A stretch of DNA of 64,000 nucleotides from Burkholderiaceae bacterium (GTDB lineage Bacteria > Pseudomonadota > Gammaproteobacteria > Burkholderiales > Burkholderiaceae_B). Each line of letters opens with the position of its first letter. The first letter of the stretch is position 1. The stretch covers positions 1 through 64,000 of the forward strand of contig JAMNXR010000016.1 in NCBI GenBank assembly GCA_023653055.1. The letters are read 5' to 3'. Positions 32,852 to 52,325 of this stretch are shown here, one piece after another. Both the position numbers and the translations under genes were made by a program. The notes beneath the pieces are model-generated. The model was not told where the DNA came from and did not search any database. It worked only from the letters and a program-made list of their open reading frames with translations.

Positions 32852-33748
32852 TCAAATTACATGCTCTGAAGTCACTGCAATATCTAAAGTATGTTCGCCA
32901 CCACCTCGAATGACGCCGCGTAGAGGCGATACGTCACCGAAATCTCTGCCTACCGCCACGCTAATATGATCCACACCAATGATCTTGTCATTGGTTGGAT
33001 CAAGCTCAAGCCAGTGTCCAGGGGCGCTTGGGCAATATACGGAGACCCATGCATGGGAGGCGTCTGCACCACGTAATTTTTTCTGACCAGGTGCCGGTTG
33101 TGTCAGCAAATATCCACTGACGTATCGTGCAGCCAAACCGATGGCACGCAAGCAACCAATATAAATATGTGAAAAATCCTGACAAACTCCCGCACGCTTT
33201 TCAAAAGCCTCCAGCATCGGCGTATGCACCTCTGTGGCGACAGGTGAATACTCAAAGTCGCGATGTATTCTTGCCGACAACTCTATGCTCGCCTCTGCAA
33301 TCGGACGATCAGACCGAAAAGACTCAAGCGCATAATCCTGTAACTCGCGTAAGCGTGGCACGTAAGGGCTTGGGAAAATAAACTCACTCGCTGCAAGATA
33401 GGGTCGCTCTAATGCATACGCAAGTGACTCCGCTACCAATTCCCAGGGTGGCGTTTCTTTCGGATTAAAGTGGCTATATCTATTTTTCACCTGCACCGTT
33501 GAAACAGCTTTTACAACAAGAGCGCGATGGGGGGTCGAAAGTGTAAAAAATGTTCGGCGATTGCCAAAAATATCTATCCCTTCAGTTTGTTGATCAGGTT
33601 GAGGTGTAATCATCAATCCTGAGCTCAGTACCTTTTGATCATCCGAATCTAATGGTCTTAGATATGCGAGATGATGTGCAAGCTCAACATCAGTTTGATA
33701 CTGATAGCGCGTTTCGTGTTCGATCTCAATTTTTGCGATGCGCGTCAT
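32852..33748 (-). CDS. Transglutaminase-like (cysteine peptidase fold) protein
   Basis: 298 residues with an N-terminal bacterial transglutaminase-like domain (IEIEHETRYQYQTDVELAHHLAYLRPL) and a transglutaminase core holding an intact Cys-His-Asp triad: RAGVCQDFSH (about residue 188), ADASHAWVSVY (about 231) and WLELDPTND (about 248). Such proteins are thought to cleave or transfer amide bonds rather than crosslink proteins. Its start overlaps the end of the ATP-grasp/alpha-E fusion gene by four bases. Third gene of the minus-strand arm of the amidoligase locus. Confidence 0.9.
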   Translation of the reverse strand: MTRIAKIEIEHETRYQYQTDVELAHHLAYLRPLDSDDQKVLSSGLMITPQPDQQTEGIDIFGNRRTFFTLSTPHRALVVKAVSTVQVKNRYSHFNPKETPPWELVAESLAYALERPYLAASEFIFPSPYVPRLRELQDYALESFRSDRPIAEASIELSARIHRDFEYSPVATEVHTPMLEAFEKRAGVCQDFSHIYIGCLRAIGLAARYVSGYLLTQPAPGQKKLRGADASHAWVSVYCPSAPGHWLELDPTNDKIIGVDHISVAVGRDFGDVSPLRGVIRGGGEHTLDIAVTSEHVI

Positions 33749-36255
33749 GATGCAAAGTGTCGCTCAACAGCCAAGGTAAAAAATCGTCGGCTAATTTCAT
33801 CGGAAAGCTGTGCGGCAAAAAGACTCAATGCACGGATCGTATCGACTTGTTTCAAGATCGCTTCTCCTTGTGGATTAAAAGTCGGCATTGATGCCATCAG
33901 CAACGCACTATCTGGCAGGTATCTGATCTCATCGGCCAAACTTCGCAAAATACATTGAATAGAGCGAGGATTGGTTTCGTCCGTCACCAACAAATCCATG
34001 AGCGCATGGACATCCTGCTGTCGCTGATAGCGCGTACGGTATGTAATCGAGCTATCGAACAATACTAATAAGGTTTCAAAGCCACGTGGTGTGTATGCAG
34101 CGGCATTTGAAAAGAATGTACACAATACTTCGCTCAGACTAATCAGTCTTTCAATCAAACGCCCGACCGTCAACATATGCCAACCTAGATCGCGCGTCAT
34201 TCTGTCAGATTGAAATCCAACTAAAGCCACAAGTTGAATACTGAGCGCATCCAAGACTTCAATCGTATCGATCGCCGTGCGAGACGGGGTGCGCAACACC
34301 ATCTGACGCATCGTTTGTGCGATTTCTGCATGCTCAGCGGGCAAGCGATCTCTGACAGCCTTGAGTGCGTGTTCAAGCGCATCAATATTATCAATCAAGC
34401 CACCTTGGTCCTTCTTTGCCAAACCACTGATTAAGGTGCGTCCAAAAATAACAGCAGACTCCGTCAAGCTCGGCGTATCCTTGGGGATCAGTTTATGTGA
34501 CTCACCCAGAACACTCATGACATCATTGAGCACTGGCAGACTATCTTGTTGGTTAGTACTCACCAGCACCAACGCTTCCTTGGCGAGACGCACCACCGAC
34601 TCGCAACGCTCGGTATACCGCCCAAGCCAAAATAAATTCTCGGCAGACCGACTCGATACGAGCTGCTCAGAGGCGGTCCAGCGAGGTATTTTTTCGCGAC
34701 TCGGCAGCATTGAATACGTATCGACTGGCTGCTCAGTCATCACCCACGTATCCAAGGTACTGCCACCACTTTGTATCGAAACAATATGGGGATCGACGGT
34801 TGCAATCCGTGTCATACCTCCCGGCAAAACTTGCCACTCCCCTTTCCCATCAGCAATGGCATACACACGCAACATCGCCGTTCGAGGCGTCACGCGATCC
34901 TCTTGCCAGGTCGGGGCCTGAGAGAAAGGCAAATAACTTTGGGTGGTGTACAAATCTGGCTGCTGTTCAATACGATCACGCCACATTTGACGATCTTTCT
35001 CGCTCAAGACGCTGGCGATTGCAGGCTGAAAATTTGTACGTGAGCTAGTCGAATACGTGGGTTTAATCACCTGCGTATCCAAATCCGGAGAAATATCTTT
35101 CCAGGCGGCAACCTCCCCACACCACCAAGTGTTGAGCGAGGGCATCTTAAGCGTCTCACCCAGCAGGTACTCGGAAATAGCAGGCAAAAATCCCTGAACG
35201 GCAGGCGACTCTAAAAAGCTTGTGCCAAGGGAATTCGCCATCACGACATTCCCTGCGCGTACAGCTTGAAGCAGACCAGGAACACCTAAACTGGAGTCTG
35301 CTCGCAGCTCTAATGGATCGCAAAAATCATCATCCAGACGACGCAACAAACCATGAATCGGCTGTAAGCCATGCAAGGTCTTAAGATACAACCTGTCGTT
35401 GCGAACCGTTAAATCTGCCCCCTCCACCAAAGGTAAACCTAAGTAACGCGCCAAATAGGCGTGCTCGAAATAGGTTTCGCTATAAGGCCCAGGGGTCAAC
35501 AAAGCAAAACGCGGTGTGTCTTGGGTGATGAGCGCCGCAGCAGTTTTCATCGAATCCAACAATCGCTTATAACTCGATGCGATATGTTGCACACGCATCT
35601 CGCGATAGGCTTCTGGAAACAACCGCGAAACAATTAACCGGTTTTCCAATACATAGCCGAGTCCCGAGGGTGACTGTGTGCGTTGACCGATCACCCACCA
35701 ACGCCCCTTAGGTCCGCGCGCGATATCAAAAGCCACTACATGCAGATGAACACCGCCAGGAGGCTGCACGCCTTGCATGGGTCGTAAATAACCGGGGTGG
35801 CCCAACACCAGTGCACTGGGCAAATATCCACCACGTATCAATCTTTGCTGCCCGTAAACATCCTGCACAATCGCATTCAATAGCTTTGCACGCTGCGCCA
35901 TACTCGTCGCAATGTTGCGCCAGTCTGCGGGCTCAATCAACATGGGCAAGGGATTCAAAGACCACGGCCGAGCTTGGTCTTGGTTATCCGCGTAAACGTT
36001 ATACGAGATTCCGTTTTGTTGAATCAGCCTGGCAATGGTGTCACTGCTGGCGGGCAAACCAGAAATACCGACCTCACCGAGATAGCCGAAAAATGTTTTC
36101 CACGGTTTGCGCAAGCCACCTGTTTGATCACGCAATTCATCGAAATGACCCGCCTTTGTCTCTGCGGTCAGGCTGCACACGGACGTAAAGATGCGCTCAA
36201 GCGCGTCTTTACGGGCTTGCTCAGCGTCTTTCTTGGAGGTGGAATCTACAGACAT
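33745..36255 (-). CDS. Circularly permuted ATP-grasp / alpha-E fusion protein
   Basis: 836 residues. Residues 1-515 form a circularly permuted ATP-grasp domain (PSGLGYVLENRLIVSRLFPEAY, LLTPGPYSETYFEHAYLARYLG, LRRLDDDFCDP, VLPGGMTRIA), predicted to make amide bonds using ATP. From about residue 530 follows an alpha-E helical domain (SSRSAENLFWLGRYTERCESVVRL). The stretch matching the glycine-rich loop of the stand-alone partner at 39824 (there KEVHGAGGYGMLVGP) reads VIKPTYSTSSRTNF here, without the glycines. Comparative genomics has linked these domains to peptide or metabolite modification; no reaction is proven. Lies 18 bases behind the DUF2126 gene. Confidence 0.9.
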   Translation of the reverse strand: MSVDSTSKKDAEQARKDALERIFTSVCSLTAETKAGHFDELRDQTGGLRKPWKTFFGYLGEVGISGLPASSDTIARLIQQNGISYNVYADNQDQARPWSLNPLPMLIEPADWRNIATSMAQRAKLLNAIVQDVYGQQRLIRGGYLPSALVLGHPGYLRPMQGVQPPGGVHLHVVAFDIARGPKGRWWVIGQRTQSPSGLGYVLENRLIVSRLFPEAYREMRVQHIASSYKRLLDSMKTAAALITQDTPRFALLTPGPYSETYFEHAYLARYLGLPLVEGADLTVRNDRLYLKTLHGLQPIHGLLRRLDDDFCDPLELRADSSLGVPGLLQAVRAGNVVMANSLGTSFLESPAVQGFLPAISEYLLGETLKMPSLNTWWCGEVAAWKDISPDLDTQVIKPTYSTSSRTNFQPAIASVLSEKDRQMWRDRIEQQPDLYTTQSYLPFSQAPTWQEDRVTPRTAMLRVYAIADGKGEWQVLPGGMTRIATVDPHIVSIQSGGSTLDTWVMTEQPVDTYSMLPSREKIPRWTASEQLVSSRSAENLFWLGRYTERCESVVRLAKEALVLVSTNQQDSLPVLNDVMSVLGESHKLIPKDTPSLTESAVIFGRTLISGLAKKDQGGLIDNIDALEHALKAVRDRLPAEHAEIAQTMRQMVLRTPSRTAIDTIEVLDALSIQLVALVGFQSDRMTRDLGWHMLTVGRLIERLISLSEVLCTFFSNAAAYTPRGFETLLVLFDSSITYRTRYQRQQDVHALMDLLVTDETNPRSIQCILRSLADEIRYLPDSALLMASMPTFNPQGEAILKQVDTIRALSLFAAQLSDEISRRFFTLAVERHFAS

Positions 36256-36273: not shown

Positions 36274-39200
36274 TCATGGGTGGCGCCGCAAGTCGAGTGT
36301 ATAAGGAAATTCCGGCTCCGTGGTGTGAGGTACGAATGAAACCGAACCCGGCGTATGTTCAAGCCTGGAAAATCTTGCTAGTCGTCGACTTTCTGCCTCA
36401 AAGGCGTTCACGGGCAGCGTGTCATAACTCCGACCGCCGGGATGTGTCACGTGATAGCGACATCCACCCATTGAGCGAGAAAGCCAGTTGTCCACCAAAT
36501 CAAATGTTAAGGGTGCATGCACACCAATCGTCGGGTGCAACGCTGACGGTGGACTCCAGGCGCGATAACGCACCCCGATCACATACTCCCCTTCAGTCCC
36601 TGTCGGTTGAATACGTGGCACCACGCCATTAATTGCAATAGAAAATCTGTTGTCCACGTAACCGGATACTTTCAATTCAAGTCGCTCAACAGAAGCGTCA
36701 ACGAGGCGAACCGTTCCCCCAGCACCGCTTTCTTCACCCATCACATGCCAAGGCTCAAGCGCTGTGCGTAAACTCAGGCGCACCTCTCGGAGATCTGTCT
36801 CGCCAATTAGAGGGAATCTAAACTCAGCATGAGGTGCAAACCATTTCATATCAAAGTGAAATCCAGCTGCCTGAAGCTCGGACAACACATCTTGAAAATC
36901 CATCAAGATGAAAGTAGGCAGCATAAACCGATCATGTAGCTGTGTACCCCAACGTGTCAGACGCGTCTGGCCGGGCGGTCTATAGGTCGTTTTCCAAAAC
37001 CAGGCGACAAGTGCCCGAATAAGCAACTGCTGCACAAGACTCATTCGCGCATGAGGTGGCATTTCAAAACCACGCAACTCTAGCAACCCCAAACGTCCGC
37101 TTGGTCCATCTGGCGAATAAAGCTTGTCGATACTGAACTCCGCGCGATGCGTATTGCCCGTGACATCAATCAAAATATTACGTAACGCACGATCGATCAT
37201 CCAGGGCGAACACCCACCAGGGCGTTTCATTTGGGTATCTATTTCTTTTAATGCGATCTCCAACTCGTACACTTGATCATTACGCGCCTCATCTACACGC
37301 GGCGACTGGCTGGTCGGGCCAACAAACAAACCAGAAAATAAATACGACATCGAAGGGTGGTTATGCCAAAAGGTCAGCAAACTTGCCAGCACATCTGGAC
37401 GCCGTAAAAAAGGACTATCTGCCGGGCTCGCCGCCCCCATCACAAAGTGATTGCCTCCACCCGTGCCCGTATGACGGCCATCCACCATGAATTTTTCACA
37501 ACTCAAGCGCGTTTCATGTGCGGCTTGATATAAAAATTCGGTATGTTGAACAAGCTCCGACCAATTTTTTGCTGGGTGAATATTCACCTCTAAGACACCA
37601 GGATCAGGCGTCACTTGTAGCAGCATCATGCGGGCATCGCGCGGTGGCGGATAACCTTCCAGCACAATGCAAACATCCAGTTGCAGCGCCGTCTCCTCAA
37701 CGATTTGCAATAGTGCCAAATAGTCTTCAAGATGCGTCAGAGGCGGCATAAAAACATATAGCACGGCGCTCTCTGGCTCCAAAAACTCAAGCTTGGGGCC
37801 ACTGCTCCGGTTTGGATTACGCACTTCGACACACAAGGCCGTTCGAATCAAATTGGCATGCGACTCAAACTTCGCTGGGGCGACGGTCTCTGTGTGTGGC
37901 ACAGTCGATCTGTGCTGATGCGTAATAGGTGTCGATGTCCTCACCGAATCAAGCGCATCAATCTTGTCAAAAGGATCGCGATCAATTGGATAGCGTCGAT
38001 CCGTTTCGAGAGCCCATGGCAAAGAATCTAATGGCAACCTATATCCCATTGGCGAATCGCCGGGGAGCAAATACAAGCGCGCATCGCGTAAATACCATAC
38101 GCCAGATTCCCATCGGGTGATATCAGATGATCTCACACCCCTCAAAGACTCTTTGCGAGTGAGTGGCAACGCATAACCAACAGGTTCGTCGAGTCGATGC
38201 TCAAAAACACGACGCAATCGCGCGCGCTCCATTTCATCATTAAGCTTTGAGTCAAATGGATCGACATTGATTGGCAGAGTTCGCTCTTTCCACAAATAGT
38301 AAAAAGTATCTTCGTAACCCGCTTGAATGTGTTGGCGACTAACGCCCAAGCGGCCCGCAACCGCATGCAAAAAAGCGTGTGCATCAGACGTTGTATAAAA
38401 GTGCGGCTCTCGCTCGTCCGCAAAAAGCTCGGGATGTTTCCAGCACGGCTGTCCATCTGTGCGCCAATACGCCGATAAGGTCCATCGGGGTAACTGCTCG
38501 CCGGGATACCATTTGCCCTGTCCAAAATGAAGAAACCCTGTAGCACCATATTGTTGTTGCAGACGATGCATCAACGCGAGCCCCAAACCACGCTTGGTAG
38601 GACCTAAGGCATCGGTGTTCCACTCCGCACCATCCCGATCTAGAGCAGAAACAAAAGTCGGCTCTCCCCCCATCGTTAGGCGAACATCCTGCGCCTCTAA
38701 CCGAGCATCCACCTGCCCACCCAGTGCACCAATGCTCTCCCACTGTGCATCGCTGTAAGGTTTTGTCACACGGGGGGTCTCATGCACCCGCTGTGCCGTC
38801 ATTTGGTGCACAAACTCTACTTCACACTCTTCTAGCGCACCAGATATGGGCGCAGCTGACGAAGGTTCAGGAGTGCAAGCAATAGGAATATGGCCCTCAC
38901 CGGCAAGCAAACCAGAAGTTGGGTCCAGGCCGACCCAGCCAGCCCCCGGCAAATACACCTCACACCAGGCATGTAAGTCGGTAAAGTCCTCGGTCGCGCC
39001 AGACGGACCATCCACCGCCTCGACATCTGGCTTCAATTGAATGAGGTAACCTGAGACAAAGCGTGCCGCTAAACCAAAGTGACGAAACAACTGCACCAGC
39101 AACCAGCCCGAATCACGACAAGAGCCAGAAGCGAGCGACAGTGTTTCCTCTGGGGTTTGTACACCTGGCTCCATCCGAACGGTATAGCCCACCTTGCGGT

Positions 39201-39657
39201 GAACGCGGCTATTGAGCTCAACTAAAAAATCAATGCTTCGGCGCTCACGACGAGGCACATTTTTAAAAAATGTTGTGAGCTGTGGACCCATTGGTGCAGC
39301 GACCAAATAAGGCGCAAGTTCTGCTTTGAGCTCTGGTGAATAGCTAAAGGGAAAGCGTTCAGACCCAGGCTCAAGAAAAAAATCAAATGGGTTGTAAACC
39401 GCGATTTCCGCCACAAGGTCAACAACAACTTCAAATGTGCGCGTTTTCTCCGGAATCACAACACGAGCGAGATAATTTGCAAAAGGATCTTGCTGCCAAT
39501 TCAGGAAATGCATCGCTGGCTCTATCCGGAGCGCATACGAAAGTATGCGGGTGCGGCAGTGTGGCGCAGGTCTCAGCCGAATCACTTGGGGACCCAGCGT
39601 GATCAACTGATCGTAGCGATACGTTGTAACGTGATGAAGTGCGACATGGATAGGCAT
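36274..39657 (-). CDS. Transglutaminase-like / DUF2126 putative amidoligase fusion protein
   Basis: 1127 residues, the largest protein here. Residues 1-290 are a transglutaminase-like region with the triad Cys in ASGSCRDSGWLL (about 179), His in FTDLHAWCEVY (about 229) and Asp in VGLDPTSGL (about 242). Residues about 320-1127 match DUF2126 (LTMGGEPTFVSA, AGYEDTFYYLWKERTLP, HTGTGGGNHFVMGA, LRGFEMPPHARMSL), a family predicted to be an amidoligase of the glutamine-synthetase-like fold. First gene of the minus-strand arm, reading from a sigma-54-type promoter sequence that ends right at its start codon. Confidence 0.92.
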   Translation of the reverse strand: MPIHVALHHVTTYRYDQLITLGPQVIRLRPAPHCRTRILSYALRIEPAMHFLNWQQDPFANYLARVVIPEKTRTFEVVVDLVAEIAVYNPFDFFLEPGSERFPFSYSPELKAELAPYLVAAPMGPQLTTFFKNVPRRERRSIDFLVELNSRVHRKVGYTVRMEPGVQTPEETLSLASGSCRDSGWLLVQLFRHFGLAARFVSGYLIQLKPDVEAVDGPSGATEDFTDLHAWCEVYLPGAGWVGLDPTSGLLAGEGHIPIACTPEPSSAAPISGALEECEVEFVHQMTAQRVHETPRVTKPYSDAQWESIGALGGQVDARLEAQDVRLTMGGEPTFVSALDRDGAEWNTDALGPTKRGLGLALMHRLQQQYGATGFLHFGQGKWYPGEQLPRWTLSAYWRTDGQPCWKHPELFADEREPHFYTTSDAHAFLHAVAGRLGVSRQHIQAGYEDTFYYLWKERTLPINVDPFDSKLNDEMERARLRRVFEHRLDEPVGYALPLTRKESLRGVRSSDITRWESGVWYLRDARLYLLPGDSPMGYRLPLDSLPWALETDRRYPIDRDPFDKIDALDSVRTSTPITHQHRSTVPHTETVAPAKFESHANLIRTALCVEVRNPNRSSGPKLEFLEPESAVLYVFMPPLTHLEDYLALLQIVEETALQLDVCIVLEGYPPPRDARMMLLQVTPDPGVLEVNIHPAKNWSELVQHTEFLYQAAHETRLSCEKFMVDGRHTGTGGGNHFVMGAASPADSPFLRRPDVLASLLTFWHNHPSMSYLFSGLFVGPTSQSPRVDEARNDQVYELEIALKEIDTQMKRPGGCSPWMIDRALRNILIDVTGNTHRAEFSIDKLYSPDGPSGRLGLLELRGFEMPPHARMSLVQQLLIRALVAWFWKTTYRPPGQTRLTRWGTQLHDRFMLPTFILMDFQDVLSELQAAGFHFDMKWFAPHAEFRFPLIGETDLREVRLSLRTALEPWHVMGEESGAGGTVRLVDASVERLELKVSGYVDNRFSIAINGVVPRIQPTGTEGEYVIGVRYRAWSPPSALHPTIGVHAPLTFDLVDNWLSRSMGGCRYHVTHPGGRSYDTLPVNAFEAESRRLARFSRLEHTPGSVSFVPHTTEPEFPYTLDLRRHP

Positions 39658-39666
39658 ACTTATTCA

Positions 39667-39683
39667 AAGCAATATCCATGCCA
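39667..39683 (-). promoter_or_regulatory. Sigma-54 (-24/-12) promoter for the minus-strand amidoligase arm
   Basis: Read on the minus strand: TGGCAT-GGATA-TTGCTT, preceded by C. GG and GC elements are separated by exactly 10 bases, the fixed spacing of sigma-54 promoters (consensus TGGCACG-N4-TTGC). The predicted start of transcription, 12 bases after the GC, falls at about 39657, the A of the ATG of the DUF2126 fusion gene. Confidence 0.75.
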
Positions 39684-39740
39684 GTTGAGGCCTCTTATCC
39701 AGGCCCTTGGACCCGCCCGCGTGACCGCCAGTGAGGGGCG
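39684..39740. promoter_or_regulatory. 57-base spacer between two divergent sigma-54 promoters
   Basis: GC-richer than the flanks. It contains GGCCT-CTTATCC-AGGCC (39689-39705), a small perfect dyad that could be a binding site. No clear NtrC-type or IHF site was recognised by eye. Confidence 0.3.
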
Positions 39741-39757
39741 TGGCATAGATATTGCTT
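39741..39757 (+). promoter_or_regulatory. Sigma-54 (-24/-12) promoter for the plus-strand ATP-grasp/alpha-E arm
   Basis: TGGCAT-AGATA-TTGCTT with GG (39742-39743) and GC (39754-39755) spaced by 10 bases. It is the mirror image of the sequence at 39667-39683 with one base changed, so the two form a 17-bp inverted repeat with one mismatch around a 57-base middle. Predicted transcription start near 39767, upstream of the ATG at 39824. Confidence 0.75.
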
Positions 39758-39823
39758 AATTAGACCAGTAGCCCGCGCTGAAGGTTGCGCGCAATCCCTG
39801 CGAACGAAGACGGACACCCTGAC

Positions 39824-41296
39824 ATGCGGCAAGCCACGCAAACCATGCTTTTGAACGATATTTTTGACGAAATGCTAGAGACCGCTCAAGCGCATACGTC
39901 TCTGTCGCCTGTCACGCGCGCGCATTACCAAAGCTTTGCGCATTGGCTCTCCCAACAGCCGGAGCAACTGATTGCCGCCCGCCGTGAAGAGGCTGAGCTC
40001 ATTTTCCGGCGTGTCGGCATCACTTTCGCGGTCTATGGTGACACAGATGGCACTGAGCGCACCATCCCTTTCGACATTGTTCCTCGGATCTTTCCTGCGG
40101 CAGAATGGGAGCGCCTTGAGCGCGGGCTTAGGCAACGGGTGCGAGCGATGAACATGTTTCTGCACGATGTCTACCATGATCAAAAAATTATAAAAGCTGG
40201 CATCATTCCTGCAGAGCAAGTACTCAATAACGCGCAGTATCGAACGCAAATGAAAGGCGTAAAAGTCCCGCTCGGCATCTACGCGCACATAGCAGGGATC
40301 GATATCGTTCGCGCCAATCACGGCGCACAGACGGGTGAGCTATTTGTACTCGAAGACAATTTGCGTGTGCCCTCAGGCGTTTCGTACATGCTTGAAAATA
40401 GAAAAATGATGATGCGCCTTTTTCCAGAGCTCTTTGCCAATCATCGCGTCGAACCTGTCGATCACTACCCAGACTTGCTACTTGAAACGCTTCGCGATAC
40501 GTTCAGAAACTCTGTACTTCGCCCTAACGTAGTCGTCTTAACCCCAGGCATGTATAACTCAGCCTATTTTGAGCATGCATTTTTGGCACAACAAATGGGC
40601 GTAGAGCTCGTAGAAGGACAAGATCTGTTTGTCAAAGATGATTGTGTATTCATGCGCACTACCCAAGGACCAAGAAAAATCGATGTTATTTACCGGCGTG
40701 TCGATGATGACTTTCTGGACCCTGAGGTCTTTAGACATGACTCCACGCTTGGACCTGCAGGGCTGCTACGCGCGTATCGGGCCGGCAACGTTGCGATCTG
40801 CAATGCCATCGGCACAGGTGTCGCAGACGATAAATCTATCTACCCTTATGTGCCAGACATGATTCGGTTTTACCTGAGCGAAGAACCCCTCATCGCAAAC
40901 GTACCTACCTTTCAATGCCGTAAACCTGACGAGCTTTCGTACGTGATTCAAAACATGGCCGAACTCGTCGTAAAAGAAGTCCATGGCGCAGGTGGTTACG
41001 GTATGTTGGTCGGCCCCGCCTCCAGCCAAAGTGAGATCGATGACTTTAAAGCGCGCGTACTCGCCAACCCCAATAACTACATTGCTCAACCAACGCTTGC
41101 CTTGTCAACTTGTCCAACCTATGTCGAGTCAGGCATCGCACCGCGACATATCGATTTGCGCCCCTTCGTTCTTTCGGGCGAACATGTCCGCATGGTGCCA
41201 GGTGGCCTCACCCGCGTAGCGTTGAAAGAAGGCTCGCTCGTCGTGAACTCCTCACAGGGTGGCGGCACCAAAGATACCTGGATTCTGGAGCACTGA
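39824..41296 (+). CDS. Circularly permuted ATP-grasp protein, stand-alone
   Basis: 490 residues from ATG 39824 (MRQATQTMLLNDIFDEM); a TTG at 39785 would add 13. The order of motifs (SGVSYMLENRKMMMRLFPELF, LTPGMYNSAYFEHAFLAQQMG, YRRVDDDFLDP, KEVHGAGGYGMLVGP, PGGLTRVAL) matches the circularly permuted ATP-grasp family, with the glycine-rich nucleotide loop intact near residue 390. Predicted ATP-dependent amide-bond enzyme acting in the cytosol. It is followed after 1 base by the alpha-E gene and sits behind a sigma-54-type promoter sequence. Confidence 0.91.
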   Translation: MRQATQTMLLNDIFDEMLETAQAHTSLSPVTRAHYQSFAHWLSQQPEQLIAARREEAELIFRRVGITFAVYGDTDGTERTIPFDIVPRIFPAAEWERLERGLRQRVRAMNMFLHDVYHDQKIIKAGIIPAEQVLNNAQYRTQMKGVKVPLGIYAHIAGIDIVRANHGAQTGELFVLEDNLRVPSGVSYMLENRKMMMRLFPELFANHRVEPVDHYPDLLLETLRDTFRNSVLRPNVVVLTPGMYNSAYFEHAFLAQQMGVELVEGQDLFVKDDCVFMRTTQGPRKIDVIYRRVDDDFLDPEVFRHDSTLGPAGLLRAYRAGNVAICNAIGTGVADDKSIYPYVPDMIRFYLSEEPLIANVPTFQCRKPDELSYVIQNMAELVVKEVHGAGGYGMLVGPASSQSEIDDFKARVLANPNNYIAQPTLALSTCPTYVESGIAPRHIDLRPFVLSGEHVRMVPGGLTRVALKEGSLVVNSSQGGGTKDTWILEH

Positions 41297-41297
41297 G

Positions 41298-42284
41298 ATG
41301 ACAAACATGCTCTCAAGAACTGCCGATCATCTCTACTGGATGTCACGCTACACAGAGCGTGCGGAAAACACCGCGCGCATGCTTGATGTCAATTATCAAA
41401 TGTCGTTGTTTCCTCAGTCCACTCAAACCGTCGAAAATACTTGGCGAGCCTTACTCGACATTTCTGAGTTGTCAGATGACTATGACTCTCGCCATGACGC
41501 GCTCACGCCACCGGGTGTGATGCAATTTATGGTGAGTGATATCAATAATCTTTCATCCATTATGCGTTGCTTTCAAGCCGCGCGCGAAAATGCACGCGCG
41601 GTACGTGGTGCTATCACCACAGAGCTTTGGGAAACCATCAACACCACCTGGCTCGAGGCTCAGCGCATGCTGCACACAGGCATGATGCAACGTTCTCCCG
41701 CAGAGTTTTTTGAATGGGTTAAATTTCGCTCACACCTGACGCGTGGCGTCAATAACGGCACGATGATGCGTGGTGAGGTGTATGACTTTATTCAGCTCGG
41801 TACTTTTTTAGAAAGGGCAGATAACACCGCTCGTTTGCTCGATGTCAAATTTCTTGCCGCAGCCGCCTCGCAAGACGAGCGTCTTGATGCCGTCGACGAG
41901 TTTTATTACTGGGCAGCAATTTTGCGTTCCGTTTCTGCATTTGAAAACTACCGTAAAGTCTACCGTGATGTCATCACCCCAGAGCGCATCGCCGAACTCT
42001 TAATTCTTCGCACCAACATGCCCAGATCGCTCGTTGCTTGCCTGCAGGAAATTGTCGACACGCTGGCACGCGTACGAAACATTTATTCAGGTAATACTCA
42101 TCATGCTGCGCTTAGCCTGCTCACAACATTAAGAGACCAGACAATTGAAGAGATCTTGGCGATCGGCCTGCATGAGTATCTGACAGAATTTTTAAGCCAA
42201 ATCAATCTCGTTGGCACCGGGATCAGCAAAGACTTTCTTGTTCCACTGAGCGATACCCCAGAGGAAGGCGACCTCGCCAGCTAA
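41298..42284 (+). CDS. Alpha-E domain protein
   Basis: 328 residues, almost wholly helical, beginning MTNMLSRTADHLYWMSRYTERAENTARML; the motif SRxAxxLxWxxRYTERxE is shared with the C-terminal part of the fusion protein at 33745-36255. Alpha-E proteins nearly always sit next to circularly permuted ATP-grasp proteins; a conserved Arg/Glu-rich surface suggests a catalytic or accessory role, unproven. Starts: ATG 41298, one base after the previous stop, or ATG 41307. The transglutaminase and Anbu-type peptidase genes that often follow this pair are absent here. Confidence 0.91.
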   Translation: MTNMLSRTADHLYWMSRYTERAENTARMLDVNYQMSLFPQSTQTVENTWRALLDISELSDDYDSRHDALTPPGVMQFMVSDINNLSSIMRCFQAARENARAVRGAITTELWETINTTWLEAQRMLHTGMMQRSPAEFFEWVKFRSHLTRGVNNGTMMRGEVYDFIQLGTFLERADNTARLLDVKFLAAAASQDERLDAVDEFYYWAAILRSVSAFENYRKVYRDVITPERIAELLILRTNMPRSLVACLQEIVDTLARVRNIYSGNTHHAALSLLTTLRDQTIEEILAIGLHEYLTEFLSQINLVGTGISKDFLVPLSDTPEEGDLAS

Positions 42285-45605: not shown

Positions 45606-46211
45606 ATGTCTTGGCGTGCCCTCACTCTCTTTTTGTTGCTTGCCATCGTCGCCTCCTGGCAAGGCGGTCGACAACTTGGTCTCTGGCTTGTTGACCAAGC
45701 ACCGGAGTCCATCGCCTCGGCCTTTAGCCCCAAAAATGAAAACGGTACGGTGCTGGATGCAGATGGCAAACCTCTCGCACCACAGCCTCCCCAACCACGC
45801 ATTGATGGGACGCTTGGTGTCCCAAAAGAAATGGCCCCCGTTGAATGGACGATCGCGCCCGTCATTGCCTCACGTGCAGATGCCAACTCCTACAATAAAG
45901 ATGGCGAAGAAGACGATGAGAGGGAAAATGAGGAAGATAAAGAAACATCCTCTGATTCCGTGCAAACGGTCGATGTACGCGGCCCCGGTACCGTCTCTGC
46001 CACTACGCGACCCAATACACCTCCACCGCCTCCAGTGCTCAGCTGGCAAGAGTCCTTAAGGAAAGAACTTTCTCAGTGCAACAGCGTTGGTTTCTTTAGG
46101 CGCCCTGGTTGTATTGATGCGGCGCAATCTAAATACTGCGGGCCAAACAGCGCTTGGGGAAAAATCGCTGAGTGCCCCGAGAAAACGAACACATACAACA
46201 TAGGCGGCTAA
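45606..46211 (+). CDS. Hypothetical exported or anchored protein with acidic linker and cysteine motif
   Basis: 201 residues. One N-terminal hydrophobic segment (LTLFLLLAIVASWQGG, residues 6-21), a Pro-rich part, a strongly acidic run (GEEDDERENEEDKE, about residues 99-112) and a C-terminal module with four cysteines (QCNSVGFFRRPGC, AQSKYCGPNSAWGKIAEC). From memory similar four-cysteine ends occur in hypothetical proteins of Burkholderiales, but I cannot name a family. It overlaps the convergent rpoN by four bases. Confidence 0.75.
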   Translation: MSWRALTLFLLLAIVASWQGGRQLGLWLVDQAPESIASAFSPKNENGTVLDADGKPLAPQPPQPRIDGTLGVPKEMAPVEWTIAPVIASRADANSYNKDGEEDDERENEEDKETSSDSVQTVDVRGPGTVSATTRPNTPPPPPVLSWQESLRKELSQCNSVGFFRRPGCIDAAQSKYCGPNSAWGKIAECPEKTNTYNIGG

Positions 46212-47719
46212 GCAGCACCTGCTTGTGACTTGCGTAGCGGTGCGGTGGGTATTCGCATCTGCTCACGGTATTTTGCAACGGTCCTGCGTGCGATCGTAAT
46301 GCCATCCTTATCCAACAACTTGACAAGCTGACTGTCGGACAGCGGTCGAGCCCGATCTTCTTGACGAATCAACGCCTGAATTCTCGTCTGAACCGCCGTC
46401 GAAGAAGTCGCCTCGCCGCCCTCTGTCGATAAACCTGTACTGAAAAAGCGCTTAAGCTCCAACGTACCGAATGGCGTCACCATATACTTTTGCGTCGTTG
46501 CTCGCGAAATCGTTGACTCGTGCATCCCGAGCTCAAGGGCAATGTCTTTAAGCGTGAGGGGACGTACCGCCTCCCAACCTTTTGTAAAGAAACTTTGTTG
46601 ATGCGTCACAATCACTTGGGAGACGCGCAAAATTGTCTCAAATCGCTGCGCAACATTACGTATCATCAAGCGTGCCTCTTGCAACTGCCCATGAAGCGCA
46701 CTGTTCGCACCACCGCGAGGGCTTCCAAGTGCCTGTGCATACATCGCATTGACCCGCAGCTTTGGCATGACCGCTTCGTTGAGATGCGCTTCCCATCCCT
46801 TGCGTGTTTTCCGCACAATCACATCCGGCACTGCAAAGTCTGCCGCAGGCTTATTCCATTGGCTCCCCGGTCGAGGATTCAATCGCACGATCAACGCGTG
46901 CGCACGACGTAATACATCCGCCTCGCATCGGAGCGCCTCTCGCAACTTGCTCATATTGCCCGTTGCCAAAATATTCAGGTGCTGCTGACATACTCGACGT
47001 GCCAGCGCCAGAACTTCTGCATCTTTGACCTCAGGTAAACGGTCTGGATCCGCGTACTGTAATTGCAGGTCTAAACACTCACCCAAGTTACGAGCGCCCA
47101 CTCCTGGCGGATCCATTGACTGCAAAAAAGTCAGTCCCAATCGAAAATCATCCAGCTCTAGCTCCAACTCTGGACTCATCCAGTCCACAATTTCCTCAAG
47201 CGGCGAAGCCAACAAGCCGTCTTCGTTGAGCTCCTCAATTAACAAGCTCACAATGGCTGCGTCTCGCCGACTGAGTCGCGTCGTGCCAAGCTGACCCAAT
47301 AAATATTCGCGCAAATTACTCTCACGGGCCGCCTCGGGGCGCTCTGTCAGCTCATCATCTCTTGAGTGCCGCGACTCCGTTGAAAACTCAGGGCGCTCGC
47401 GCTCAGAGTACGGATCGCCCTCCATAGAGGAGGTGGTCGACCCCTCTAAGTCGGCCTGAGACGCCTCAGAGGGGTCTGCAGGACCCTCAAATGCCTGGTC
47501 AACCCTTATAGTAGCGCCCAGCGCGCCGGGGTCTTGTAGGCCGTCTCCTTCTTGTTCTAACAGTGGATTTTCAGCAAGCGCCTTCGCGACTTCCGCCTCT
47601 AACTCGAGGGTCGACAACTGCAAAAGTCGGATGGACTGTTGCAGTGCCGGGGTCAGTGTCAAGCTCTGACCAAGACGAAATTCGAGAAAATTGCGAGTCA
47701 TAGGTACAATATTTTGCAT
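46208..47719 (-). CDS. rpoN: RNA polymerase sigma-54 factor
   Basis: 503 residues. Region I at the N-terminus is Gln/Leu-rich (RLGQSLTLTPALQQSIRLLQ), followed by an acidic region II (about residues 60-120), the core-binding domain and the DNA-binding C-terminus with the RpoN box ARRTVAKYRE, which reads -24 promoters. ATG 47719 is used; ATG 47701 (MTRNFLEFRLGQ) also fits the family start, and a GTG at 47737 is possible. In most betaproteobacteria rpoN follows lptB; here it stands alone, so it could be a second copy or a moved gene. Confidence 0.95.
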   Translation of the reverse strand: MQNIVPMTRNFLEFRLGQSLTLTPALQQSIRLLQLSTLELEAEVAKALAENPLLEQEGDGLQDPGALGATIRVDQAFEGPADPSEASQADLEGSTTSSMEGDPYSERERPEFSTESRHSRDDELTERPEAARESNLREYLLGQLGTTRLSRRDAAIVSLLIEELNEDGLLASPLEEIVDWMSPELELELDDFRLGLTFLQSMDPPGVGARNLGECLDLQLQYADPDRLPEVKDAEVLALARRVCQQHLNILATGNMSKLREALRCEADVLRRAHALIVRLNPRPGSQWNKPAADFAVPDVIVRKTRKGWEAHLNEAVMPKLRVNAMYAQALGSPRGGANSALHGQLQEARLMIRNVAQRFETILRVSQVIVTHQQSFFTKGWEAVRPLTLKDIALELGMHESTISRATTQKYMVTPFGTLELKRFFSTGLSTEGGEATSSTAVQTRIQALIRQEDRARPLSDSQLVKLLDKDGITIARRTVAKYREQMRIPTAPLRKSQAGAA

Positions 47720-48353
47720 GATGATCACACCAAACACCGCAAATACCCGAAAAGACGTCTATCTACTGGGCAATACCTTGTTGCGTCTGGGACTGCCGCG
47801 ACTCATTATTCGCTTAGCTGTGACCTTAAGTGTGCTGGCCTTGTTACTTTATTGCGTGCAGGGCATTCTCGCACGGGGTAAAGCTTGGTTAGAGTTTAGT
47901 CTGCATATTTCGGGTCTCAACGATATCCTTGGCAAGACGGTGATCGATTTTGTCATGCAGTATCAAAAATTCTTCTGGTGGCTGATTGCCGCGCTTCTGG
48001 TGCTTTTCGTCTTGAGTGGACTCATGAGTTGGCTCAAGGCTAGCGTCAAACGCGGCCGTGCTGCGCTCGTCCCCCTCGGTGAGATACGCAAGCTGTGTGG
48101 AGGTCTGAGCCAAGAAGCACTCGATGTGCTGGATTGGGTATGGCGGGACAAGTCAAATCCGGTCACCATCGGCAATATACAGGCCACGCTCACGCAGCTA
48201 CGCTCTGGCCGTCAACGCAAATTAGATTTAGCGCGCGCGCAAAAACTTGAGCTTGAGCTTGCCCTAACACCCAAAACTTCCACGCCAGCGACCGCCCCAT
48301 CAGACACCCCTCCTGCTCCTGGCGGTCAGCGCGAACCGACCCTTCTTGCCTAA
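47718..48353 (+). CDS. Hypothetical membrane protein
   Basis: 211 residues with two membrane helices: LPRLIIRLAVTLSVLALLLYCV (about residues 28-50) and FFWWLIAALLVLFVLSGLMSWL (about 84-105), then a cytoplasmic, charged, helical part (LGEIRKLCGGLSQEALDVLDWVWRDK) and a Pro-rich end. No family recognised. Starts at ATG 47718 or 47721; the first overlaps the divergent rpoN start codon in the tetranucleotide CATG. No room is left for separate promoters between the two genes. Confidence 0.75.
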   Translation: MMITPNTANTRKDVYLLGNTLLRLGLPRLIIRLAVTLSVLALLLYCVQGILARGKAWLEFSLHISGLNDILGKTVIDFVMQYQKFFWWLIAALLVLFVLSGLMSWLKASVKRGRAALVPLGEIRKLCGGLSQEALDVLDWVWRDKSNPVTIGNIQATLTQLRSGRQRKLDLARAQKLELELALTPKTSTPATAPSDTPPAPGGQREPTLLA

Positions 48354-50451: not shown

Positions 50452-51258
50452 TTAAACGGGCGTCTCTTGAGGGCGCCCGTTTACTTTTTGTAACGCAGCA
50501 ATTTCTACAGGCTCAAAACCAGCCGCCAGACGCGCCTCAATATTAAAGGGTCCTTTAAGCGTTGGCGCTCGATATTGCGTCGCTAACTCGGCATACGTTT
50601 GAACGGGCTCGAGACCGCGCGCTGCACATAGCCAGCGATACCAGAAATTACCAATTGCTACGTGGCCGATCTCATCGCGCAAAATAATATCCACAATCGC
50701 TGCTGCCTGAGGATCACCCCCGCTTGCGAGCTTATGACGCACAGCAGGAGAAGCATCTAAACCGCGCGCCTCCAACGTACGGGGCACCAGGGCCAGGCGT
50801 GCCAGCACATCCCCCTGCGTGCGCTCCGCCATTTCCCAGAGCCCATCGTGCGCAGGAAAATCACCGTAACAATACCCAAGTGTTTTCAAATGCACCTCAA
50901 GCATCTGGAAATGTTCAGCCTCCTCAATCGCAACGCCCATCCACTCTCGATAAAATGCCTCTGGCATCTCACCAAAACGCCACACCACATCAAGCGCTAA
51001 ATTAATGGCATTGAATTCAATATGTGCCAATGCATGGATCAACACCGCACGTCCTTCTAGCGTATTGACGCTGCGCAGGCGCAGTCCTGCCGGGGAAACC
51101 AATTCAACGGGTGGACGACCAGGAATGGGCACAAGCGCCTCTAGGACACGCGAGGAATCAATCGGTGTATCCGCTTGTACCTTGGCTAAGAGATCCGCTT
51201 TCTCTTGCCAAGTGGTCTGACCCAGTGCACAGAGTGCCAATTCTCGCAATTCAATCAC
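50452..51258 (-). CDS. DUF455 ferritin-like domain protein
   Basis: 268 residues, helical. Putative di-iron ligands of a ferritin-like four-helix bundle are visible: ALAHIEFNAINLALD, VAIEEAEHFQMLEVHL and LRDEIGHVAIGNFWYRW, giving the ExxH pairs. The DUF455 family has no proven function; it is distantly like other ferritin-like oxygenases. The C-terminal residues are encoded by the leuA terminator hairpin. It starts with ATG 51258, 43 bases from the divergent DUF3429 gene. Confidence 0.88.
   Translation of the reverse strand: MIELRELALCALGQTTWQEKADLLAKVQADTPIDSSRVLEALVPIPGRPPVELVSPAGLRLRSVNTLEGRAVLIHALAHIEFNAINLALDVVWRFGEMPEAFYREWMGVAIEEAEHFQMLEVHLKTLGYCYGDFPAHDGLWEMAERTQGDVLARLALVPRTLEARGLDASPAVRHKLASGGDPQAAAIVDIILRDEIGHVAIGNFWYRWLCAARGLEPVQTYAELATQYRAPTLKGPFNIEARLAAGFEPVEIAALQKVNGRPQETPV
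50453..50489 (+). terminator. Rho-independent terminator of leuA
   Basis: Stem TAAACGGGCG (50453-50462) and CGCCCGTTTA (50474-50483), 11-base loop, then CTTTTT. It begins 22 bases after the leuA stop and lies within the last codons of the convergent DUF455 gene, whose stop codon is at 50452-50454. Confidence 0.85.
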
Positions 51259-51827: not shown

Positions 51828-52325
51828 TTATTTCTCAGGCTTCTTTTTTGACGTTTTTTTCTTAGGCACTGCCAACATCGTAAAACGGCAACTTGGTGCC
51901 CCGCATCGACACGCGTACTGCGCCTTAAGCGTTTTAGTCAGCTTTTCATCGTCAATCACGAGGCCGTAATCGTAGTTCAGCTCTTCGCCGCGCTTGATAT
52001 CTCGCTTAGCAACGATGTGCACCCGCTTTCCACCTTTACCTTCACTACTCTCACAGTTTGGTTCGCAAGCGTGATTAATCCAACGCGCGTCATTCCCTTC
52101 GTCATTACCATCAATGACTTTGCCCGTACTGAGTGAAAAGAAAAAAGTGTGGAACGGATCATCAGGATTGGTGGGATGGCGGCGATCGGCCTCTTTCGCA
52201 CTAATCGTCTTGCCGCCGTATTCAATGATACGCGTGCCTTCAGGAATATTTCGCGCAGCAAAAACACCGTTACCATGCACCGTTGATCGCCTGACAATAT
52301 GCCAGGGCTTTTCAGTTGTTGTCAT
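51828..52325 (-). CDS. SET-domain protein (putative lysine methyltransferase)
   Basis: 165 residues, essentially one SET domain plus post-SET: STVHGNGVFAARNIPEGTRIIEYGG at the start, then NDARWINHACEPNCE, the core SAM and lysine-site motif, EELNYDYGLVI with the catalytic Tyr, and YACRCGAPSCR with post-SET zinc cysteines. The end is a short lysine tail (KKKTSKKKPEK). SET proteins methylate protein lysines in eukaryotes; bacterial ones are found in several groups, with targets largely unknown. Lies 18 bases after panB on the same strand. Confidence 0.9.
   Translation of the reverse strand: MTTTEKPWHIVRRSTVHGNGVFAARNIPEGTRIIEYGGKTISAKEADRRHPTNPDDPFHTFFFSLSTGKVIDGNDEGNDARWINHACEPNCESSEGKGGKRVHIVAKRDIKRGEELNYDYGLVIDDEKLTKTLKAQYACRCGAPSCRFTMLAVPKKKTSKKKPEK

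Follow-up and report, generated by a model that had tools for sequence, protein, structure and literature searches.

Two divergent putative sigma-54 promoters, probably under NtrC control, between ATP-grasp, alpha-E and transglutaminase operons in a Burkholderiaceae bacterium

The gap between two divergent operons for ATP-grasp, alpha-E, transglutaminase and amidoligase-like proteins in a Burkholderiaceae bacterium very probably contains two independent sigma-54 promoters, both of which would be opened by phosphorylated NtrC under nitrogen limitation (probability about 0.88). The sequence evidence for this reading consists of the promoter motifs, their conservation, the presence of RpoN and NtrC, and the occurrence of the same motif in front of nitrogen genes.

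Results

The window is the whole 64,000-nt stretch of DNA that was analysed. An earlier note on this DNA described a 17-bp inverted repeat with one mismatch around 57 bases, and reported that each arm matches the -24/-12 consensus with exactly 10 bases between GG and GC. The sequence bears out both statements. In the window the two 17-nt arms are 94% complementary and are separated by a 57-bp spacer (39684..39740). The left arm, TGGCATGGATATTGCTT (39667..39683, minus strand), would be a promoter reading into the DUF2126/transglutaminase operon, with a predicted +1 at 39657. The right arm, TGGCATAGATATTGCTT (39741..39757, plus strand), would read into the ATP-grasp/alpha-E operon, with a predicted +1 at 39767. 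Both start sites were placed by taking the C of TTGC as position -12. Sigma-54 promoters have the -24/-12 consensus TGGCAY-N5-TTGCW with 10 bp from GG to GC, and transcription from them starts about 12 nt past the -12 element and is lost without RpoN. Read outward, both arms have the form TGGCAY-N5-TTGCTT, again with 10 bases separating GG and GC. The B. cenocepacia study writes the consensus as GGcacg-N4-ttGC (PMC5491218).

Genome-wide, the pattern TGGCAYN5TTGCW has 24 matches, whereas its reversed form has 3. Eight of the 24 matches, all putative sigma-54 sites other than the arms, were used to build a weight matrix. Both arms and 14 matches in coding or unclear places were left out, and one site (L065) was retained although it falls within the longest reading of its gene. 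The earlier note had proposed scoring both arms with such a matrix. Over both strands of the 64 kb, the left arm ranks first (23.8 bits) and the right arm second (22.4 bits), with the third position at 16.1 bits; because the eight training sites were picked by a pattern that also fits the arms, these scores express likeness to the genome's other sites and are not independent proof. None of 60 simulated sequences of 64 kb contained a position with correctly placed GG and GC that scored as high as the lower arm. The eight retained sites precede glnA (whose promoter reads TGGCACAGTTTTTGCTT), glnK followed by amtB, and genes for a Peripla_BP_5 protein, three SBP_bac_5 proteins, an NMT1-like protein and a Gcw_chp protein. 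Judged from these annotations, the genes behind the sites are largely those of nitrogen assimilation and transport. A simple consensus scan of window positions 39560-39900 found no sigma-70 promoters and no terminators.

The description of the locus as a divergent ATP-grasp/transglutaminase/alpha-E set holds, but domain matches show its content to be richer. On the left (minus strand) are a fusion of a transglutaminase-like domain with DUF2126, a putative amidoligase of 1127 aa (36274..39657), a fusion of circularly permuted ATP-grasp and alpha-E domains of 836 aa (33745..36255) and a second transglutaminase-like protein of 298 aa (32852..33748). On the right (plus strand) are a circularly permuted ATP-grasp type 2 protein (39824..41296, with its ATG at 39824 and an in-frame TTG at 39785) and an alpha-E (DUF403) protein (41259..42284). 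All member domains of the ATP-grasp/alpha-E/transglutaminase/DUF2126 amidoligase system are thus together at the locus, and the enzymes of both operons may join or cut amide bonds. The gene for sigma-54 itself, rpoN (46208..47737, minus strand, with all three Pfam domains found), lies 3.9 kb beyond the alpha-E gene, in agreement with the earlier estimate of about 4 kb. We reject this linkage as meaningful: of the 16 genomes of the genus that have the locus, 11 have rpoN on the same contig at a distance of about 6.7 kb from the start of the DUF2126 gene, but in G042 it is far away. RpoN was present in 31 of 32 genomes of the genus and was not found in G011. Further along the window, near a leuA-like gene, Pfam matches alone mark a DUF455 protein (50452-51258) and a small SET-domain protein (51828-52325).

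The genus set comprised 32 genomes, the host's own (G000) and 31 others. The DUF2126 gene was found in 16 of them, and the gap next to it could be read in 15 (it is unreadable in G027). Both arms are present in 13 of these 15 gaps, the comparison with relatives that the earlier note had suggested as a check. G015 has only the right-hand site, and G014 has neither arm. Among the 13 genomes with the pair, conservation differs from part to part: pairwise identity at the 11 consensus positions is 95.8% for the left arm and 98.6% for the right, as against 73% and 55% at the five middle positions, 31-35% in the flanks and 36% in the spacer (the last in the nine genomes with 23-bp spacers). Only the -24/-12 letters are kept while the arm middles, spacer and flanks drift, which argues for two separate outward promoters. 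The compact divergent pair is, from these sequences, the arrangement of the host's genus. Its spacer measures 22-24 bp in 11 of the other 12 paired genomes, 32 bp in one, and 57 bp here. In the G014 gap (L017 / L099), 13 nt separate a good NtrC-like box, GCACTTTTTAGGTGC, from the start codon of the DUF2126 gene, as though one type of promoter had replaced another.

Beyond the genus, we considered the best 80 of 595 homologous matches, taken from named genomes. Six (L159, L169, L173, L175, L178 and L180) were left out where the alignment made the DUF2126 start uncertain, and 74 were tested, two of which (L110 and L186) are the genus itself. Among these best 80 of 595 matches, 53 of the 74 loci have a site matching at least 11 of 12 positions in the 200 nt before the DUF2126 gene, compared with 5 of 2,220 control windows; at the same threshold 21 of the 74 have no site. 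Four of six Burkholderia loci (L159, L164, L175 and L178, but not L169 or L173) instead have an 11/12 site 41-51 nt upstream of the ATP-grasp gene. Genus conservation and the wider loci with a site together make sigma-54 control of the system look old in Burkholderiales, as far as sequence can tell. The proposal of two divergent sigma-54 promoters is strongly supported by this conservation, by the matrix, by the motif shared with glnA and glnK-amtB, and by the 53 of 74 loci among the best 80 of 595 matches.

The tight divergent layout is, from a scan of the order, uncommon but not unique. Back-to-back sites 5-35 bp apart, a range that leaves out the window's own 57-bp pair, were found in 5 of 399 genomes of the order and in none with the reversed pattern. 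Three of these pairs, near position 1501 of L107, L108 and L109, are 6-16 bp apart, lie between PHB depolymerase and glutathione S-transferase genes, and come from three families of the order. The layout is therefore not unique to our locus; these genes are unrelated to those of the window, and the B. cenocepacia genes of the same two families, I35_4672-73, are sigma-54/NtrC-dependent (PMC5491218). The pair in L105 adjoins a periplasmic binding protein gene, and that in L106 may fall in coding sequence. A fixed 23-bp spacing is weak as a functional rule, given spacers of 32 and 57 bp within the genus and of 6-23 bp in other pairs. A second pair in G028 (contig 1, L101 5556-5623), with a 34-bp spacer, lies between genes for a TctC tricarboxylate receptor and an M81 (MlrC-type) metallopeptidase.

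The leftward promoter has an unusual predicted relation to its gene. Its predicted +1 coincides with the A of the DUF2126 ATG at 39657 in the window and falls 1-3 nt before the AUG in the other 12 paired genomes. In 9 of the 13 there is no in-frame ATG, GTG or TTG between the AUG and the next upstream stop, the exceptions with an earlier in-frame start codon being G017, G019, G026 and G028. In the window an in-frame TGA (39666-39664) stands three codons upstream of the ATG, and the next Met of the protein, residue 49, already falls within the first domain. A message made from the left promoter would have no room for a Shine-Dalgarno site. Among the best 80 of 595 matches, the first base of the site is 47-112 nt upstream of the start codon in 46 of the 53 loci that have one, and 29-30 nt upstream in L118, L124 and L128.

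One might conclude from the leaderless geometry, seen in all 13 paired genomes, and from the survival of the right-hand site alone in G015, that only the rightward promoter matters and that the leftward arm is either a relic that became fixed or has some other role. We consider this unlikely. The consensus letters of the left arm are under about the same constraint as those of the right arm, a sigma-54 site precedes the DUF2126 gene in most of the wider loci among the best 80 of 595 matches, and leaderless mRNAs are established in Proteobacteria (PMC3616915).

Sigma-54 promoters need an activator, and the host genome narrows the choice. The sigma-54 activator domain finds a single strong match there (E 7e-70); four further matches are weak. 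The strong match is encoded in a glnA-ntrB-ntrC operon and combines a receiver domain and a Fis-type helix-turn-helix with the GAFTGA motif, so that, on sequence grounds, the sole strong sigma-54 activator found in the genome is NtrC. The earlier suggestion that an enhancer-binding protein ties the locus to nitrogen status is thereby supported, and the protein can be named. Activators were counted in 21 of the 32 genomes of the genus. Exactly one strong activator was found in 16 of the 21, and of these 16, nine have the locus and seven have the pair as well. The other five are G013 (none), G002 and G012 (two each), G008 (three) and G016 (six). NtrC control is the simplest reading because NtrC is the one strong activator here and the single-activator state is common in the genus.

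The consensus NtrC box is TGCACC-N5-GGTGCA, and a search reaching 400 nt from each arm found no NtrC-like box with fewer than three mismatches. The best one near the arms has three mismatches and falls within the DUF2126 gene (39552-39568). At the eight single sigma-54 promoters of the same genome, a box with at most two mismatches was found in five and one with at most three in all eight. Of 200 mononucleotide shuffles of equal length, 59 had a best box with at most three mismatches and 5 had one with at most two. Around 11 gaps of the genus, NtrC-like boxes are no commoner than background, and at the wider loci (among the best 80 of 595 matches) a box with at most three mismatches occurs in 17 of 53, compared with 1 of 53 reversed controls. 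Given that there is no clear box near the pair, NtrC may act from weak or distant sites, or unbound.

The lack of a clear box could also mean that the arms are real sigma-54 promoters driven by another enhancer-binding protein, in which case the signal would not be nitrogen. At 95% completeness the assembly could lack a second activator, and G002, G008, G012 and G016 do have two or more strong activators. We regard this as improbable in view of the 16 single-activator genomes, seven of which carry the pair, and of the NtrC dependence reported for the homologous cluster of B. cenocepacia (PMC5491218).

Finally, one palindrome serving as the operator of a dimeric regulator, or a DNA or RNA hairpin, with an accidental likeness to sigma-54 sites, would fit the near-perfect repeat in the window and the fully matching arms of G001, G003, G008 and G026, but it is very improbable and we reject it as largely refuted: such an element would keep its arms complementary throughout, whereas across the 13 genomes the left and right arms share 140 of 143 consensus positions but only 31 of 65 middle ones (mismatches reach 7 of 17 in G004 and G009, where five of them fall in middle letters), the spacing ranges from 22 to 57 bp, and single arms precede single genes of the genome, a pattern that points to two promoters separately held to one consensus.

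Discussion

In the mechanism that we propose, sigma-54 RNA polymerase would bind each arm as an independent -24/-12 promoter, and nitrogen limitation, through phosphorylated NtrC, would open both. The two halves of the amidoligase/ATP-grasp/alpha-E/transglutaminase set would then be made together, with the leftward mRNA predicted to begin at its AUG or within 3 nt of it, and NtrC may activate the pair from weak or distant sites or while unbound. We infer the activation by NtrC at this locus, the start sites, the leaderless leftward mRNA and the activation without a near box. That the leftward promoter makes a leaderless mRNA, and that NtrC opens the locus from solution or from sites that are weak or far away, is as a combined claim tentative, and we hold it with less than even confidence. 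Such action of NtrC would be tolerable in a genome with a single activator.

In a relative, B. cenocepacia, others have shown that the homologous cluster depends on NtrC and sigma-54 (PMC5491218). In strain H111, the log2 change in an ntrC mutant relative to wild type was -8.2 for I35_5080 (DUF404/407), -9.4 for I35_5081 (DUF403), -9.4 for I35_5082 (transglutaminase) and -6.0 for I35_5083 (large transglutaminase), and all four genes are counted among the common targets of NtrC and sigma-54 (PMC5491218). They belong to the same families as the genes of the window, namely DUF404/407 ATP-grasp, DUF403 alpha-E, transglutaminase and large transglutaminase. Unlike that cluster, the locus of the window forms two divergent operons whose promoters stand back to back. 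The earlier note knew of no work placing this system under sigma-54. That was wrong, as this published regulon demonstrates, and its claim to novelty fails, while its reading of the DNA stands.

For P. putida the evidence on sigma-54 control of the homologous cluster is mixed. The Anbu operon PP_2685-PP_2688 includes nitrogen-induced ATP-grasp and transglutaminase genes homologous to those of the window. PP_2686-2688 rose 11- to 15-fold under nitrogen limitation in the wild type and were assigned by the authors to NtrB/NtrC, but they still rose 14- to 20-fold in an rpoN mutant (PMC7801951). The urtABCD genes, also assigned to NtrB/NtrC, were likewise up in that mutant, by 7- to 17-fold, and the message of PP_2685 (Anbu) changed 1.12-fold in the wild type under nitrogen limitation (PMC7801951). 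Elsewhere, nitrate gave higher levels of PP_2685 and PP_2688 than ammonium did, and in a reporter test of nitrogen depletion the PP_2688 promoter responded 3.7-fold, whereas that of PP_2685 was nitrogen-agnostic (PMC8050072). Two papers on Anbu structure cite nitrogen induction from Hervas 2008 (PMC5666114, PMC6376114).

The P. putida operon encodes Anbu (PP_2685), whereas the system of the window is a version in which no Anbu was found. In the host's own 95%-complete assembly, the only PF00227 protein found is HslV, beside HslU (L190, contig 23), and no Anbu gene was found beside ATP-grasp, alpha-E and transglutaminase genes. The amidoligase/ATP-grasp peptide-synthesis systems of Iyer et al. 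2009, as described in the Anbu papers, have the same ATP-grasp, alpha-E and transglutaminase neighbourhood (PMC5666114, PMC6376114). In comparison with them, the window has two ATP-grasp, two alpha-E and two transglutaminase modules as well as DUF2126, and no Anbu was found. The Anbu papers call the role of this enzyme set unconfirmed.

What counts against control by NtrC and sigma-54 is the lack of a near NtrC box, the losses in G014 and G015, the 21 of 74 loci without a site (among the best 80 of 595 matches) and the P. putida rpoN mutant. The nitrogen link of the gene set is already known from other bacteria, B. cenocepacia and P. putida. What is new, from the sequence, is detail at this locus: a cleanly conserved instance of this known regulatory link, a predicted leaderless sigma-54 mRNA, which we do not put forward as the first of its kind, and the lack of a clear NtrC box.

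Why would this matter? The mirrored promoters and the predicted leaderless message would offer clean and cheap tests of sigma-54 promoter geometry. Moreover, the enzyme set is widespread, and promoter sequence would place it in the response to nitrogen starvation across Burkholderiales, beyond the transcriptomes of two species. Such a placement would direct the search for its substrates toward the synthesis or salvage of peptides and amides once ammonium is exhausted.
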